Shown here piece after piece: positions 117-5,948 of a stretch of 64,000 bases of DNA. Below the pieces are notes generated by a model. It saw nothing but the letters and a program-made list of their open reading frames with translations, ran no database searches and was not told the origin of the DNA. The DNA is from Methanosarcinales archaeon Methan_01 (GTDB lineage: Archaea > Halobacteriota > Methanosarcinia > Methanotrichales > Methanotrichaceae), in contig LUYE01000024.1 of the NCBI GenBank assembly GCA_001602645.1, positions 1 through 64,000 on the forward strand, written 5' to 3'. Both the position numbers and the translations under genes were made by a program. Position 1 is the stretch's first letter, and each line of letters begins with the position of its first letter.

Positions 117-179
117 ATGGCACGTTACATGCCGTTCTATACCACGGCATTTGTCGAATATAAAGGTTTCGGTCGGAGG
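117..179 (+). pseudogene. possible short gene start cut by the insertion sequence
   Basis: An ATG at 117 follows a very strong ribosome-binding site (GGAGGGAGG, about 106-114) and opens a reading frame beginning MARYMPFYTT that runs straight into the insertion sequence at 180. Joining the flanks by removing the element and one target copy gives a frame that stops after a few codons. A protein-like frame with good codon bias restarts one base away on the far side (about 3228-3370, reading ...VTDLVTGG...). It may be a small gene split by the element and later frameshifted. The evidence is only the ribosome-binding site and codon bias. Confidence 0.25.
171..179. repeat. target-site duplication, left copy
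   Basis: GGTCGGAGG immediately outside the left inverted repeat. The identical 9 bases lie immediately outside the right inverted repeat at 3225-3233. A 9-bp duplication is typical of several DDE insertion-sequence groups and fixes both ends of the element. Confidence 0.85.
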
Positions 180-194
180 GGCTTTGCACGTAAA
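180..194 (+). repeat. insertion sequence left inverted repeat
   Basis: GGCTTTGCACGTAAA, the exact complement of 3210-3224. Two further GCACRTAAAGT-like copies follow in the same orientation at about 203-213 and 224-234. They are probable extra transposase-binding sites. Confidence 0.85.
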
Positions 195-290
195 CCCCGT
201 TCTGCACATAAAGTCTTGGACTTGCACGTAAAGTCAAGATCAATCATGAAATGCAAAATCGTAGGATTTACGCCGGTACTAAGGTGACCG

Positions 291-1502
291 ATGATTGCCC
301 CGAAAGAAATTTGTATCGGAATACCTATTCCCACCCAAGCGAGAAAAGTGGAGGTCATTCCGATGGGTAGAGAAGAGCGACAAAAGCTGATCAGTGAAAT
401 CGAAACATTGAGATGTAGCAAAGTAATAACATACATGATAACAACGAAACCGGGGGTGCCATCTCAAATTGACACGGTTGATTTGCGTGAGATGTATGAC
501 CATCTATTAAAAATTGGAAAAGCTGAAAAAATTGACTTAGTTATATACAGTTTAGGCGGCACGGCAACTGTGGCATGGGCGTTATCGAATTTGATAAGAG
601 AATTTACAGAAAAATTCACCGTGTTGGTTCCAAGTTTCGCGTTCAGTTGTGCTACAGCTATCGCCCTTGGAGCGAATAATATAATTATGGGTAAAATGGG
701 AACGCTTGGCCCGGTTGACCCTTCCGTATCAAATGCATTCAATCCTATTATAAAAAATCAAAAAGAGCCCATATCAGTTGAAGATATCGGCGGGTATATA
801 TCATTATTAAGAGACAAAATTGATTTAAGGGATGAAAAGAATTTCACAGAAGTATTCTCCCGTCTCTGTGTTGAAGTTCACCCATTAGCTCTTGGAAATG
901 CATATAGACATTATATAAAAGCGAGGGACGATACTAGAAAGCTGTTGGAATTGCATATGGACCCGAAGGAGCAAGGAACTCAAATCAATAATATAATCGA
1001 CACCCTAGTTGAAAAACTGTATTTTCATGGACATCACATTCCTCGCACCGAAGCAGATAAAATAGGCTTGAAAGTCCAAAATGCAGAAGACATTCGGTGT
1101 AATGGGAGAAATCTGGATGAGATAATGTGGGACCTATTCCTGGATTATGAAAAAGAATTGGATCTCAAAACGCCATATGAGGACGATGTATCCACCGGAG
1201 ATAAAAGGGTAATACCAATGAAATTTATCGAGTCTATAGGGTCTACTTCAGCACTTGTAGTAGGTCAAAGGTTTGACAAACTATCATTACCAGGAGGATC
1301 GTTTTTTACCCAAATATCGACCCCCACAGGTCAAATGCTATCGTTAGCAGTTATGAAAGAAGGGGGGCAAATTCAGATCGTACCATATATTGGGAAAGGC
1401 GGGAGAGCGGTATATATCAACGGAGATCTTTATGAGAAACACGAAACTGTTTCCTGGAGAAACTTTTCCACAGATGACGAACTTTACAAAACAGATGCGT
1501 AG
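291..1502 (+). CDS. SDH-family Clp-fold serine protease-like protein (passenger)
   Basis: A 403-aa protein resembling the SDH/ClpP-fold serine proteinase family, which is related to signal-peptide peptidase SppA and ClpP. Residues about 80-95 hold a glycine-rich oxyanion-type segment (YSLGGTATVAW). A serine-containing stretch follows (FAFSCATAIALGA), then a signature close to the family (MGKMGTLGPVDPS, about 127-139). The C-terminal third is less conserved. The ATG at 291 follows AAGGTGA and was chosen as start; an ATG at 363 is an alternative. There is no signal peptide, so it is probably cytoplasmic. It lies inside an insertion sequence and is A+T-rich, so it is likely a transferred passenger. 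Its substrate and role in the element are unknown. Confidence 0.7.
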   Translation: MIAPKEICIGIPIPTQARKVEVIPMGREERQKLISEIETLRCSKVITYMITTKPGVPSQIDTVDLREMYDHLLKIGKAEKIDLVIYSLGGTATVAWALSNLIREFTEKFTVLVPSFAFSCATAIALGANNIIMGKMGTLGPVDPSVSNAFNPIIKNQKEPISVEDIGGYISLLRDKIDLRDEKNFTEVFSRLCVEVHPLALGNAYRHYIKARDDTRKLLELHMDPKEQGTQINNIIDTLVEKLYFHGHHIPRTEADKIGLKVQNAEDIRCNGRNLDEIMWDLFLDYEKELDLKTPYEDDVSTGDKRVIPMKFIESIGSTSALVVGQRFDKLSLPGGSFFTQISTPTGQMLSLAVMKEGGQIQIVPYIGKGGRAVYINGDLYEKHETVSWRNFSTDDELYKTDA

Positions 1503-1552
1503 GGAAAACTAGATATCGTTTCGGAACAACACCTTTTAAAAGGAGGATATTT

Positions 1553-1690
1553 ATGATAACTGAAGTTGAAACCATGGATATTAGTGAGGTCGTAACTGGG
1601 CAGCATATTGAATTGGTACCCCACGTCGGAGCTTGCGTGGTGGATATCAGTCTATATGTTGCGGATATAGACGAAAATCCTCCAATTTGA
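1553..1690 (+). CDS. 45-aa hypothetical protein
   Basis: A short frame beginning MITEVETMDI and ending DENPPI, preceded by a good ribosome-binding site (AGGAGG, about 1541-1546, 6 bases from ATG). It starts 50 bases after the protease stop in the same direction and may be co-transcribed with it. I do not recognise it. The strong ribosome-binding site argues that it is translated. It could be the remaining N-terminus of a longer decayed gene. Confidence 0.45.
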   Translation: MITEVETMDISEVVTGQHIELVPHVGACVVDISLYVADIDENPPI

Positions 1691-1698
1691 CGTTGCCC

Positions 1699-1872
1699 TC
1701 AATCTGATGATTTTATTTTTCTCTCTATGATTAATTTTCCGTCTTCTATTTTCGCGGTTAATTCTTCGCCAACATCAAAGGGAAATGTACTGTCCCTAAC
1801 AAGATCACTTGGCAAATTGATGCTGTGCCTTGATTTGTAGGCATAGAGCTTGACGTTGGCTTGATTCGTCAT
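1699..1872 (-). CDS. AbrB/SpoVT-like DNA-binding protein
   Basis: About 57 aa beginning MTNQANVKLY. The middle matches the swapped-hairpin AbrB pattern: a strand, then a basic INLPSDLVR segment, then FDVGEELTAKIEDGKLIIERK. These small dimers usually act as antitoxins or autorepressors. The ATG at 1872 is chosen because a TATA-like element (GTATTATATACC, about 1899-1910 on the minus strand) sits at leaderless distance; an ATG at 1947 is possible. It is transcribed away from the transposase, and a perfect palindrome lies in the shared promoter region. I infer that it represses itself and perhaps the transposase. No partner toxin is recognisable in the element. Confidence 0.6.
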   Translation of the reverse strand: MTNQANVKLYAYKSRHSINLPSDLVRDSTFPFDVGEELTAKIEDGKLIIERKIKSSD

Positions 1873-1901
1873 AGAGATAAGGAGGTTTTCTAGGTATATA
1901 A

Positions 1902-1923
1902 TACTTTGGTACATACCAAAGTA
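1902..1923. promoter_or_regulatory. 22-bp palindrome between divergent promoters
   Basis: Two 10-base arms (TACTTTGGTA and its exact complement) separated by CA. It lies between the AbrB-like gene (minus) and the transposase (plus) and overlaps the promoter elements of both: TATA-like sequences at about 1893-1900 and 1932-1940. Position and symmetry fit an operator for the element's own AbrB-like protein. That binding is inferred. Confidence 0.5.
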
Positions 1924-1963
1924 AGCACAAGGTTTAAGTACATACAACGGTATATACTATAGT

Positions 1964-3190
1964 ATGCAAGACGCGCCAGATCCTAGAGAAGAGCGTGGCA
2001 GGGCAATCGCAAACCAGGGAAACCAGATCAAGAAAGTAAGTGACACCTCATTTAAGGTGAGATCGCAGTCAGGTAACAAGGTCTATGAGGTCAAAAGTAC
2101 ACCAACAGGGATGACTTGCACGTGTCCTGATTTTGTTTACCGAGGGGGTAAGTGCAAGCACATCATGGCCACCCGTTATTACCTTGAAGTCGAGAAGGAC
2201 ACACCAAAGGGAACCATAACCGAGAAGGTCCACCTAACCTATGCACAAGCCTGGAACGCCTATAATGAAGCTCAGAAGGCAGAGGTGAAGCTGTTTGACG
2301 AGCTACTTAAGGATCTGGTGAAGGCGATACCTGAGCCCGAACAGATAACAGGCAGACCTCGCATACCACTCCAAGAGAACCTATTCTGTGCCATCCAGAA
2401 GGTATACTCTCAGCTTTCGAGCCGTCGCGCATACAGCATATTCCAAAATGCCACCGAGAAAGGGCAGATCAACCATGTACCACATTTTAATGCAACATCA
2501 GAACTCTTTAATAAACCAGAGACAACAGAGATTTTACACCAACTTGTAATGCTTTCCGCCTTACCTGTTGCTGGTATCGAAACTAACTTCTCTGTGGATT
2601 CAACGGGATTCCGTACAACCACATTCAATGCCTACTGTGGCATGAAGCACGGCGAAAAGAAACAACACCGATGGGTGAAAGCTCATCTTTGTTCAGGTGT
2701 CAAAACCAACGTTGTAGCTGCGGTGGCAATAACTGATGAACATGGTAACGACTCGCCTCAGTTCGGTCCCTTGATCAGAAAGACCGCCGAGGGCTTCACC
2801 ATCGATGAGGTGTCTGCTGATATGGCTTATTCGTCGCGAAAGAACCTCGAAATTGTAGGTGGTGTTGGAGGTACGGCATATATCCCGTACAGGAAGAACG
2901 CGACAGGAAGAGCTGGAGGATCGCCCCTTTGGAAAAAGATGTACCATTTCTTCCAGCTTAACAGAGACGAGTTCATGGACCACTATCATAAGAGGAGCAA
3001 TATCGAAGCTACGAATGCCGCGATCAAGAGGAAGTTCGGTGAGACCTTAAAGTCGAAGAATCCCGTTGCTCAGGTAAACGAACTGCTGGCAAAAATTGTA
3101 GCCTACAACCTCACCGTCGTCATCCATGAGATGTATGAGAATGGAATCAACCCTGAGTTCTTGCACGTAAAGTCTGGTGTCTGCACGTAA
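1964..3190 (+). CDS. DDE transposase with N-terminal SWIM zinc finger
   Basis: A 408-aa transposase. Residues about 50-70 form a SWIM-type zinc finger (C-x-C near 52, C-K-H near 64-66) likely to bind DNA. The catalytic core has DSTGF (Asp about 212), SADMAYSS (Asp about 285) and RSNIEATNAAIKRKFG (Glu about 348), the D-D-E triad of IS4/IS5-type enzymes. The ATG at 1964 stands about 25 bases after a TATA-like GGTTTAAG, so the transcript is probably leaderless. The stop codon lies inside one of the GCACGTAA end motifs. The reading frame is complete, so the enzyme may be active. The exact insertion-sequence family cannot be named without a database search. Confidence 0.85.
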   Translation: MQDAPDPREERGRAIANQGNQIKKVSDTSFKVRSQSGNKVYEVKSTPTGMTCTCPDFVYRGGKCKHIMATRYYLEVEKDTPKGTITEKVHLTYAQAWNAYNEAQKAEVKLFDELLKDLVKAIPEPEQITGRPRIPLQENLFCAIQKVYSQLSSRRAYSIFQNATEKGQINHVPHFNATSELFNKPETTEILHQLVMLSALPVAGIETNFSVDSTGFRTTTFNAYCGMKHGEKKQHRWVKAHLCSGVKTNVVAAVAITDEHGNDSPQFGPLIRKTAEGFTIDEVSADMAYSSRKNLEIVGGVGGTAYIPYRKNATGRAGGSPLWKKMYHFFQLNRDEFMDHYHKRSNIEATNAAIKRKFGETLKSKNPVAQVNELLAKIVAYNLTVVIHEMYENGINPEFLHVKSGVCT

Positions 3191-3218
3191 AGTAGGGCTA
3201 AATCAGCCCTTTACGTGC
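3183..3218. repeat. stem-loop at the right end of the insertion sequence
   Basis: GCACGTAAA (3183-3191) pairs with TTTACGTGC (3210-3218), and inner GGGCT (3195-3199) pairs with AGCCC (3205-3209). The outer arms are copies of the end motif, one of them inside the terminal repeat. It overlaps the transposase stop codon, so it could end the transcript, block incoming transcription, or be a paired transposase-binding site. Confidence 0.6.
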
Positions 3219-3224
3219 AAAGCC
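3210..3224 (-). repeat. insertion sequence right inverted repeat
   Basis: TTTACGTGCAAAGCC, the perfect complement of the left end 180-194. It is followed directly by the second copy of the 9-bp target duplication. Confidence 0.85.
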
Positions 3225-3233
3225 GGTCGGAGG
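3225..3233. repeat. target-site duplication, right copy
   Basis: GGTCGGAGG, identical to 171-179 on the other side of the element. Confidence 0.85.
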
Positions 3234-3431: not shown

Positions 3432-4655
3432 TCAGGTCGACGGCCAGATCATCTCCTCGATGGACTTTGCGAGCCTTCCCATCCCTTCCACGATCCTCTC
3501 CTCGCTGGAGTTGGAGAAGTTCAGCCGGAGGGTGTTGTCTCCGCCGCCGTTGGCGTAGAAGGCCTGCCCCGGAACGAAGGCAACGTTGTTCTCGATGGCC
3601 CGGTTGAAGAGGTCGAGGGAAGAGAGGCCGCCGGGAAGGGAGACCCAGAGGAACATCCCTCCCTCGGGCCTGGTGTACTCGACCCCGGCGGGGAAGCTCT
3701 CCTCGATCATCTTCACCATCAGGTCCCTCTGCCTCCTGTACCCGGACCGGATCCGCTCGAGATGCTCGCCGACGTCGTTATCCGCCAGGTACTGGTAGGC
3801 GATCCTCTGAGATAGGATGCTGGTGTGCAGGTCCGATGCCTGCTTTGCGATGACCAGCTTCTCCATGATGTCGCTTCTAGCGCAGGCCCAGCCGAGGCGA
3901 AGCCCCGGCGAGATCACCTTGGAGAAGGAGCCGAGGAGGACGGCCTTCCCCCCGAGAAAACGCCTCATCGACGGGGCCTCCTCGCCGATGAACCTCAGCT
4001 CGCCGTAGGGGTCGTCCTCGATGAAGACGGTCCTGCAGCCTCGCATCGCTCTTGCCACCATCCTCCTCCTCTCCTCCGAGTAGCTCACACCGGTGGGGTT
4101 CTGGAAGTTGGGGACGGCGTAGAAGAGCTTCGTCGGCCTTTCCGAGAGGGCGGCCGAGAGGGCCTTCGGGTCTATCCCATCCCCCTTCAGGGGGACGGAG
4201 CGGAACTCCGGCTCGAAGATCCCGAAGGCCTGGATGGCGGCGAGATAGGTCGGCTCCTCGACGATGACCCGGTCTCCCTTGTCGAGAAACGTCTTTCCCA
4301 AGAGGTCGAGACCCTGCTGAGAGCCCGTCGTTATGAGGACCTCCTCGGGATCGACCTTCATCCCCTTCATCGCATATCTCTCGACGATCAGCTCTCTCAG
4401 GGGAAGATAGCCCTCGGTGGTGCTGTACTGGAGGGCGGCCTCGCCGCTCTCCCTCAATACCTTCTGGGCGGCTTCTGCCACCTCCCTCACCGGAAAGAAC
4501 CGAGGATTTGGAAGGCCGCCCGCAAAGGAGATCGTCCTAGGGTCCTCCGTCACCTTAAGGATCTCCCTTATGAAGGACCTGGGAACCCGAGACATCCTCT
4601 CCGCAAAGGGGCTGATGACCTCGTCGACGCCCCTCTGACCGATCATATCATCCAT
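3432..4655 (-). CDS. PLP-dependent class I/II aminotransferase
   Basis: A 407-aa fold-type I aminotransferase of the LysN/2-aminoadipate and aromatic aminotransferase subgroup. Typical features in order: an N-terminal ISFAGGLPNP segment, QYSTTEGYLPLRE, NPTGVSYS, IEDDPYGELRF, and the PLP-binding lysine in LGSFSKVISPGLRLGW, followed by a C-terminal arginine region. It should move an amino group between an amino acid and a 2-oxoacid in the cytoplasm; the substrate is uncertain (2-aminoadipate, aromatic or branched-chain). It appears to be a single-gene unit. A GGTGG element precedes the ATG, and a TATA box lies about 60 bases upstream. Confidence 0.85.
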   Translation of the reverse strand: MDDMIGQRGVDEVISPFAERMSRVPRSFIREILKVTEDPRTISFAGGLPNPRFFPVREVAEAAQKVLRESGEAALQYSTTEGYLPLRELIVERYAMKGMKVDPEEVLITTGSQQGLDLLGKTFLDKGDRVIVEEPTYLAAIQAFGIFEPEFRSVPLKGDGIDPKALSAALSERPTKLFYAVPNFQNPTGVSYSEERRRMVARAMRGCRTVFIEDDPYGELRFIGEEAPSMRRFLGGKAVLLGSFSKVISPGLRLGWACARSDIMEKLVIAKQASDLHTSILSQRIAYQYLADNDVGEHLERIRSGYRRQRDLMVKMIEESFPAGVEYTRPEGGMFLWVSLPGGLSSLDLFNRAIENNVAFVPGQAFYANGGGDNTLRLNFSNSSEERIVEGMGRLAKSIEEMIWPST

Positions 4656-5096
4656 GCCGTAACCACCATCCGGAACATCGTCCCTGGTAGCTCCAGGGCG
4701 AGCCCTCCAATATATATAAGTATGATGGTGAGAACTTCTAGAAGATCCCGTCGAGGGAGGGAAGGTCCCTTATAAAAAAGCCCGCCAGCTAAAGATAAAA
4801 TGAATCCTCACAAGCCTGGAAAGGTTTACGAAGTAAAAAACTACAGCCCCGTCAGCCGCGCCTCGACGGCGGAGGAGGATCGACCCAACCGGCCGGCCCC
4901 AGGCCCCTTCCCTTCCCGTTCCAGATCCTGACGGCCCTTGTGATGGAATATTTGATGTCATCTATCAACGTCGGGGATTTGGTGGTGAGATACTTGGGAT
5001 CTTCCATCCCATGAGTGCAGATGCGTATTATATATTTTGGCAATATAAATTTTAAATCGAAAATTTGATATATGGAAAAAAACATTTTATAGCTGT
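4656..5096. other. intergenic region with two divergent promoters
   Basis: No gene is seen in these 441 bases. At the left a TATA element (about 4711-4720) serves the minus-strand aminotransferase. At the right the DNA turns very A+T-rich, with TATA-like sequences at about 5026-5036 (TTATATATT) and 5084-5092 (TTTTATAG) ahead of the plus-strand membrane protein. The middle part is plain G+C-rich sequence with no convincing reading frame. Confidence 0.5.
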
Positions 5097-5948
5097 ATGT
5101 CGAATGATGCCACCATTAAAGATGCTTCAACTCCTCAGCTCGAAGAGGAACTGAGGATGAGAACTTGGGCAGAAGAGAAGCTTATCAAGCTTGGAAGTCT
5201 TCTGGAGATAGGAGAGTCGAGAAACGTCCACGTAGAAGATGCCATATCAAATTATGATAAATCTCGAGAGATGCTGTATAAAGATAAGAATTCTCTTGAG
5301 TCGATTAAAGAGTCGGACAAGGGTATGCGGCTTTTTACGATGGAGCTGAATCAGCATAAGTTCAAATTTTTTGGTCTGCCGAGATGGACTTATCTCTCCT
5401 TCGTCATCGCGAAATATGGACTCTCCTCAATGTTCTACGGGATGGCTACAGCCATCTTTTTTGGATATTTATTGATGCATCCGCCTTATAAATACGTCCT
5501 CAATGTTCCCCTTTGGGCGTCCCTCTTCGCCGGACTGGGCGCATCGGCGCAGATCATGATGGGCACTGTGAATGACATAAAAACGACCGGCGTCGTCCAG
5601 GAGTATAAGAGGCTCTGGTACACCGCCCTACCATTCCTCGCGGCGATATTCGGCTTCATAGCCTACCTGCTCACAGATCTAGGGATGATGACTACGGGAG
5701 GCGGACCGACCACCAGCTATCTTAATGCCACCAGCATCGGCCTTTTGAACCTGTCGGGACTGGATGGACCTCTGCTGATCAACAACACGACGCTGATCGC
5801 TTCGAGCGCCGAAACCCTCACGGCTCAGGACGTCTCATCCTTCGAGGCGAACTTCGGCGATAACATGAGGGTCGTCGTCTGCTTCCTGGTGGGGGTGTTT
5901 ACGAACGCATTCATAGAAAAATTGTCGGATTTGGCGGAGAAGTTTTGA
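5097..5948 (+). CDS. membrane protein of unknown function, 283 aa
   Basis: Not recognised. The first 110 residues are hydrophilic and helical, probably a cytoplasmic coiled region. Predicted membrane segments follow at about 112-130 (FYGMATAIFFGYLL), 138-158 (PLWASLFAGLGASAQIMM) and 175-195 (ALPFLAAIFGFIAYLL). A threonine/asparagine-rich loop of about 60 residues comes next and is probably outside. A last segment lies near 262-275 (VVVCFLVGVFTNAF), with a short FIEKLSDLAEKF tail. It is A+T-richer at its start than later. It stands alone, with a TATA-like element directly upstream and no clear ribosome-binding site. Confidence 0.65.
   Translation: MSNDATIKDASTPQLEEELRMRTWAEEKLIKLGSLLEIGESRNVHVEDAISNYDKSREMLYKDKNSLESIKESDKGMRLFTMELNQHKFKFFGLPRWTYLSFVIAKYGLSSMFYGMATAIFFGYLLMHPPYKYVLNVPLWASLFAGLGASAQIMMGTVNDIKTTGVVQEYKRLWYTALPFLAAIFGFIAYLLTDLGMMTTGGGPTTSYLNATSIGLLNLSGLDGPLLINNTTLIASSAETLTAQDVSSFEANFGDNMRVVVCFLVGVFTNAFIEKLSDLAEKF

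Follow-up and report, generated by a model that had tools for sequence, protein, structure and literature searches.

The first 64,000 nucleotides of contig LUYE01000024.1 from Methanosarcinales archaeon Methan_01 (hereafter the window) begin with a 3,045-bp element (positions 180–3224) that has the ends of an insertion sequence (IS) and encloses several genes besides a transposase. An initial annotation regarded such cargo as an exception among insertion sequences, and the locus raises two questions: what kind of mobile unit is this, and what determines where it lands? We conclude, with a probability of about 0.8, that it is a cargo transposon of an IS903-related family with a SWIM-DDE transposase, which combines a fixed backbone with exchangeable cargo and, in archaea, inserts immediately upstream of core promoters. 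Direct reading of the sequence confirmed the perfect 15-bp ends and the 9-bp duplication described earlier: the left terminal inverted repeat GGCTTTGCACGTAAA (180–194, plus strand) matches the right end (3210–3224, minus strand) at 15 of 15 positions, the latter being its exact reverse complement, and the target-site duplication GGTCGGAGG at 171–179 is repeated exactly at 3225–3233.

The family was collected with an alignment of 11 transposases, which yielded 79 loci in genomes and 21 in viral contigs, and elements were delimited by a script that demanded agreement at 12 or more of the 15 end bases, together with a 9-bp duplication flanking the transposase. This gave 49 complete, distinct elements, 33 from archaea, 7 from bacteria, and 9 from viral contigs. 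They measure 2,462–9,983 bp (median 4,231 bp), have GGCTTTG-type ends, and are bounded by duplications that are all exact and nearly always 9 bp long, a few being best fitted as 8 or 10 bp; the longest elements and those with 12/15 ends (e.g., L134 and L183) are less certain. Their transposases consist of an IS903/IS5-type DDE domain joined to an N-terminal SWIM zinc finger. A reversed-sequence control is uninformative for the end finder, since reversal retains inverted repeats and direct duplications; left flanks were instead paired with the right flanks of other elements, and 0 of 98 such pairings gave GGCTTTG-type ends with a 9-bp duplication. A search of related genomes for the ends, as the initial annotation had proposed, found a degenerate end pattern in 24 of 50 Methanotrichaceae genomes and a reversed control pattern in 0. 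The archaeal hosts comprise Methanotrichaceae, other methanogen relatives, Thermoplasmata, and, with DPANN lineages included, Micrarchaeota, Nanoarchaeota, Woesearchaeota, Pacearchaeota, Aenigmatarchaeota, and Nanohaloarchaeota; the bacterial hosts are Acidobacteriota, Chloroflexota, and Abditibacteriota.

At none of 85 loci is the transposase bracketed by GGCTTTG ends no more than 350 bp away on each side. The family thus has no bare form in these data, and cargo, far from being exceptional, is the rule for this transposase; the cargo-free copies that had been sought did not turn up. The claim that several genes between exact ends form a single mobile unit was borne out by this result and by empty sites for two sister elements, L072 and L076. 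The joined flanks of L076 match uninterrupted sequence in several family genomes (G028, G024, G026, G036, and others), and those of L072 match the window's own genome (contig C78, 88%). In both alignments the duplicated sequence is present as a single copy and a TATA-like sequence is already in place, and the promoter therefore predates the insertion. These empty sites and the exact duplications indicate that the element moves as one unit. Two nested or adjacent elements, or an assembly artefact, might be suspected in a draft genome (2.6 Mb, 85 contigs) whose contig begins 170 bp left of the element and in which G+C differs between cargo (~39%), transposase (47%), and right flank (62%). However, the whole unit is flanked by exact ends and a duplication, the same architecture and ends recur across dozens of independently assembled genomes, some of them in only one or two contigs, and two sister elements have clean empty sites, so that we give this explanation almost no credence. 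No empty site spanning both flanks was obtained for the window element itself: the matches of its two flanks in relatives lie at separate places, and the contig start is only 170 bp away. Window bases 1–62 recur at the very start of host contigs C7, C63, and C65 (97–100% identical), and the window contig therefore breaks at another interspersed repeat. Rfam and tRNA searches at the window insertion site gave no matches.

Directly abutting the left duplication, on the minus strand, is a predicted core promoter (157–170; position weight matrix (PWM) score 15.8) that consists of GAAACC at the position of the B recognition element (BRE) and the TATA box TTTATATT. It points away from the element, and the neighbouring gene therefore keeps its promoter. 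Exact matches to GAAANCTTTATATW occur twice in the 2.6-Mb genome, one of them being this promoter, and the flank that bears it is 84–96% conserved in relatives that lack the element there; in one of these (G003) the conserved flank lies upstream of a 447-amino-acid open reading frame (ORF) that resembles a MoxR-type AAA ATPase by eye. We aligned the archaeal insertion sites on the duplication edge and chose the better side of each by expectation-maximisation. Across 32 sites this recovered a one-sided motif, TATATAWAGNTTTC, directly outside the duplication, with a leave-one-out log-likelihood of 130.5; random positions in the same loci gave a mean of −2.6 and a maximum of 9.3, and A+T-matched positions a maximum of 9.2. 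The opposite flank holds almost no information, and the motif is found about as often beside the left end of the element as beside the right. In the direction leading away from the element it reads GAAAnC-TTTATATA, a BRE-like hexamer followed by a TATA box, and the duplication ends where the BRE starts, 6 bp before the TATA box.

Individual sites bear the motif out. Of the 32 archaeal sites, 25 score above the 99% null and 20 also above the 99.9% null, as compared with 0 of 7 sites in bacterial hosts and 1 of 9 in viral contigs, the single viral positive (L200) being one that groups with Nanoarchaeota. The spacing is exact to the base: above-threshold matches, training sites included, number 27 at offset 0, 0 at offset 1, 7 at offset 2, and at most 2 elsewhere. 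Among single ends unused in training, 23 of 41 exceed the 99% single-side null (0.4 expected by chance; about half of ends expected if the motif is always one-sided), and the positives include the host's second copy of the element (AAAACC CTTTTATA). An ordinary passenger-carrying IS with random targeting might produce an upstream bias merely through the survival of harmless insertions, given that selection removes insertions within genes and archaeal intergenic regions hold promoters. Yet selection cannot yield single-base spacing, A+T-matched random positions lack the pattern, and no peak is seen for two bare IS5-type elements of other archaea (nine copies each, 1 of 18 at offset 0), although these face the same selection. 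The single-base spacing therefore excludes survival as the main cause, and we consider this account, already contradicted, very improbable. The bare elements (in G073 and G023, L252–L269) are ~1.0 kb long, have mostly 8-bp duplications and the ends GGCTCTGTAGAAATCC and TGCTGTGTTGGATAA, and follow no promoter rule.

The position of genes around the motif is that expected of promoters. Elsewhere in the same archaeal loci, the motif peaks 20–39 bp before gene starts, with 52 matches in the forward and 20 in the other direction. At 16 of the 32 insertion sites, an ATG frame begins 15–45 bp past the TATA box in the direction leading away from the element; across the element this holds for 2 of 32, and the random rate is 13.6%. 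Many of the 16 ATGs are 21–29 bp beyond the TATA box, as in leaderless genes. This ATG-based test with fixed geometry separated the two directions, which laxer ORF criteria had not clearly done (15 versus 10 of 32, with 37% at random). In Methanolobus, BRE/TATA elements have been placed ~19–22 nt from transcript starts (PMC5378194), which fits. A TATA box pointing into the element was ruled out by the BRE position and the gene starts. By these sequence criteria the motif is a real promoter, and we are nearly certain of the promoter-abutting rule in archaea.

What the elements carry to these sites is strongly biased. A DNA methyltransferase domain occurs in 23 of 118 cargo proteins of at least 140 amino acids (N6_Mtase 12, C5 4, N6_N4 4, D12 3), and thereby in 22 of 49 elements, whereas 0 of 118 flank proteins of the same loci have one among the listed families. 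Further cargo domains are HSDR_N, Methylase_S, HNH, AIPR, BrxC/D, DUF3800, DUF2326, and SocA-like, and 394 PADLOC families were matched in the cargo set versus 29 in the flank set. The host's second copy, split over two contig ends (left end on C23, right end on C4, both carrying the duplication CTAGCATGG), encodes a transposase 88% identical to that of the window; its cargo resembles a type I restriction-modification operon, with an HsdM-like open frame of 713 codons that has an HSDR_N-type start and an HsdS-like gene, both recognised by eye and from their resemblance to proteins of L072 and L120 that have Pfam matches. In L072, a 5,383-bp element from a genome of the same genus (G001), the transposase is 91% identical and HsdM and HsdS were confirmed by Pfam. 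The transposases are thus closely related yet the cargoes unrelated, from which it follows that cargo has been exchanged. Unit structure, cargo exchange, and defence enrichment are established as far as sequence comparison can do so, and we regard this description of unit and cargo as highly probable. The earlier suggestion that the A+T-rich cargo is foreign agrees with its low G+C, but G+C does not identify a donor. Recent movement was supported only in part: the element has perfect ends, a perfect duplication, and intact main reading frames, but the one further copy that the draft genome contains matches it at 83% across the common transposase end, and there is therefore no sign of a recent burst. 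Neither the target specificity nor the defence character of the sister cargoes had been noted in the initial annotation.

The cargo of the window element is a ClpP-like SDH-type serine protease of 403 amino acids (291–1502, plus strand; PF01972, E 2.9e-15), in which Ser119, at the nucleophile position, and a GPxDP motif are conserved in an alignment with three relatives. It may serve defence, as the sister cargoes, strongly enriched for defence, suggest. A regulatory or housekeeping protease picked up by chance is a somewhat less probable reading: PADLOC gave no match for the protease, and unknown or membrane proteins are among the cargo of several other elements. Against a chance acquisition, SDH-type proteases recur, once inside the related element L076 (30% identity) and once between the element-like ends of L085. 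This latter locus (3738–5627, G044:C239) contains no transposase; its ends, which enclose an SDH protease (36% identity) and a RelE-like gene, and its duplication are imperfect, and it is possibly a non-autonomous cargo carrier. Relatives of the protease in G172, G059, and G184 were rejected as family cargo, as they are not inside elements of the family. Another protease-like cargo is found in L159 (6713–7537), where a protein looks like a proteasome-beta-type hydrolase by eye and has no Pfam match.

The remaining features of the window element belong mostly to its backbone, which we propose consists of the GGCTTTG ends, subterminal repeats, the transposase, and usually a small divergent gene for a putative regulator. 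Three TGCACGTAAAGT-type repeats, likely transposase-binding sites, lie at the left end (185–234, plus strand, starting at 185, 203, and 223) and further TGCACGTAAAGT repeats at the right end (3162 and 3182, plus strand; 3208–3219, minus strand). The transposase of 408 amino acids (1964–3190, plus strand) matches DDE_Tnp_1 (E 1.1e-18) and SWIM (E 9.8e-6). Its zinc finger is formed by C52, C54, C64, and H66, and its DDE domain has D212, D286, and E348, the last within a Y341-R344-E348-K355 motif; all these residues are invariant in 27 homologues. It scores 123 bits against the NCBIfam model transpos_IS5_2, under the curated cut-off of 140. No close relative with a solved structure was found; a predicted model (predicted local distance difference test, pLDDT, 80.6) recovers the general RNase H-type integrase fold only, and its best structural match, ISCth4, is weak (template modelling score 0.33, 13% identity). 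Divergent from the transposase is a gene for an AbrB-like protein of 57 amino acids (1699–1872, minus strand, with 1872 as the better start), a putative regulator that has no Pfam match. The initial annotation counted it as cargo; it more probably belongs to the transposition module, given that about two-thirds of elements have a small divergent ORF immediately upstream of the transposase and that AbrB-like homologues at the same position in L077 and L120 are 69–79% identical despite unrelated cargo. The divergent ORFs mostly span 46–98 amino acids, the extremes perhaps being spurious, and where recognisable by eye they encode AbrB-like, ribbon-helix-helix-like, or zinc-ribbon proteins. A PWM scan predicted promoters for both genes, CAAAGT ATTATATA (1895–1908, minus strand) for the AbrB-like gene and ACAAGG TTTAAGTA (1927–1940, plus strand) for the transposase, with TATA boxes that end 23 and 24 bp, respectively, before the start codons, a leaderless arrangement in the case of the transposase. 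Between them is a near-perfect palindrome, ACTTTGGTACATACCAAAGT (1903–1922), a candidate operator through which the AbrB-like protein might repress both genes, transposase included. An ORF of 45 amino acids with no recognised family (1553–1690, plus strand) is of doubtful status and may not be a gene.

How, then, would the transposon find promoters? We favour, at about even odds, guidance by the transcription factors themselves: TBP/TFB, or a pre-initiation complex bound at the promoter, would capture the transposition complex. What arrives at the site is the backbone, as one unit with a replaceable cargo that is very often a conflict system such as restriction-modification. The insertion position is fixed relative to the factor-binding sites, as expected of host-factor guidance, and capture by TBP/TFB fits because the motif is one-sided, present across archaeal branches, and absent in the bacterial group. 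There is precedent in the capture of IS5-family transposition by DNA-bound H-NS (PMC11335895). A less probable but serious competitor is that the transposase itself, perhaps via its SWIM domain, recognises BRE/TATA-like DNA or its bendability with no host factor involved. The sequence specificity of the target motif at single-base spacing speaks for this, as does the SWIM domain, which is found in all members tested and is absent from IS903. On the other hand, a symmetric transposase complex should prefer both flanks, while the flank opposite the motif is almost without information; relatives with the same domain show no motif in bacterial hosts; and IS5-family relatives are directed by a host DNA-binding protein (PMC11335895).

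Several points weigh against our overall interpretation or parts of it. A transposase that recognises DNA itself would give the same sites as the putative host-factor step. In the tree, the copies from bacterial hosts fall into a single nested group, so that their lost preference could reflect an altered protein and not the lack of TBP, and direct recognition keeps its place for that reason. About one-fifth of the archaeal sites fall under the 99% null, and the promoter preference is therefore not absolute. No clean ends were found at 14 of 42 loci with long flanks. As for the window, it offers only 170 bp of left flank, and its protease, which PADLOC does not match, is no more than a putative defence protein.

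Some members extend the range of forms and hosts of the family. L102 (G024:C41:30598–30917) is a 320-bp element with family ends, an exact duplication (CAAAGCACC), and the promoter motif ACAACC ATTAAATA; it is a miniature non-autonomous derivative. At L075/L121 (G044:C222), one element is present in two or three head-to-tail copies. A single 9-bp spacer, identical to the target duplication, separates them, and the contig is partly palindromic; this is either a tandem insertion or an assembly artefact. The members in IMG/VR contigs classed as viral (L198–L218; the L198 transposase is 81% identical) may be carriers between hosts or mis-called host DNA. Two metagenome-assembled genomes labelled bacterial contain L125 and L126, whose transposases are 71–72% identical to that of the window, far closer than other bacterial copies; these are possibly mis-binned archaeal contigs.

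Comparison with known systems relates the family to IS903. The IS903 copy in phage HK022 has the ends GGCTTTGTTGAATAAATC, a 9-bp duplication (TCATTCCAA), a length of 1,057 bp, and one gene; our family shares with it the GGCTTTG ends, the duplication length, and a DDE domain that is homologous (27% identity, E 6e-13). IS903, however, has a DDE_Tnp_1_5 N-terminal domain and no SWIM finger, whereas extra DNA is a constant feature of the present family, which in archaea inserts beside promoters. All 49 elements have the GGCTTTG-type ends and duplication of the IS5/IS903 group, and the transposase its Y-R-E-K signature, but none is a short (~0.8–1.3 kb) transposase-only element, the shortest being 2,462 bp. 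Mutator-like elements (MULE/Mutator type), which also combine a SWIM finger with a 9-bp duplication, were rejected, as no Mutator-type transposase domain is present: the only Pfam matches are DDE_Tnp_1 (IS4/IS5 type) and SWIM. Tn7-like and other defence-cargo transposons likewise unite exchangeable defence cargo with a site preference; unlike them, the present family is small and has a single DDE transposase, with no second transposase, AAA regulator, or target-selector gene recognised, and its target is a generic promoter rather than one attachment site. The yeast elements Ty3, Ty1, and Tf1 integrate at fixed or preferred positions near promoters, guided by transcription proteins, but they are eukaryotic retrotransposons, whereas ours is an archaeal DDE DNA transposon whose guiding factor is only inferred. 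Transporter IS (tIS) are IS derivatives with passenger genes unrelated to transposition (PMC9330008). Our family resembles them in having passenger genes between the ends of an IS-type element that moves as a unit, and differs in having no bare version found, in swapping cargo among close relatives, in carrying DNA methyltransferases in nearly half of its elements, and in its target rule. ISAba13, IS903, and insH3, all IS5-family members, are directed to H-NS-bound DNA (PMC11335895); H-NS, however, acts over broad A+T-rich regions and not via the underlying sequence, while insertion here is fixed to one base from the TATA box. The parts are of known kinds, namely an IS903-type transposase, passenger genes, and yeast-like promoter-proximal integration, and it is their combination that appears new: the accessible, open-access literature that we searched, from which most subscription journals are missing and which is weak evidence of absence, held no report of promoter-targeted archaeal insertion sequences, of the obligatory cargo, of a base-exact archaeal promoter target, or of the combination. 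The family may, with about an even chance, represent an archaeal DNA transposon that uses promoter-bound TBP/TFB as a landing platform, an IS903-related prokaryotic counterpart of yeast promoter-tethered integration with a SWIM finger and obligatory, exchangeable, often defensive cargo.

Collectively, these results identify a concrete means by which restriction-modification and other conflict systems can spread among archaea, tiny DPANN genomes included. The transposon lands ahead of host genes by a base-exact rule that leaves the core promoter in place, and because it lands just before the promoter, defence genes can spread without breaking host genes. The same rule makes new insertions and new cargo predictable. 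If transcription factors guide the insertion, archaeal and eukaryotic elements would have a targeting principle in common, and a few archaeal proteins could suffice to reconstitute a simple system for promoter-directed integration.

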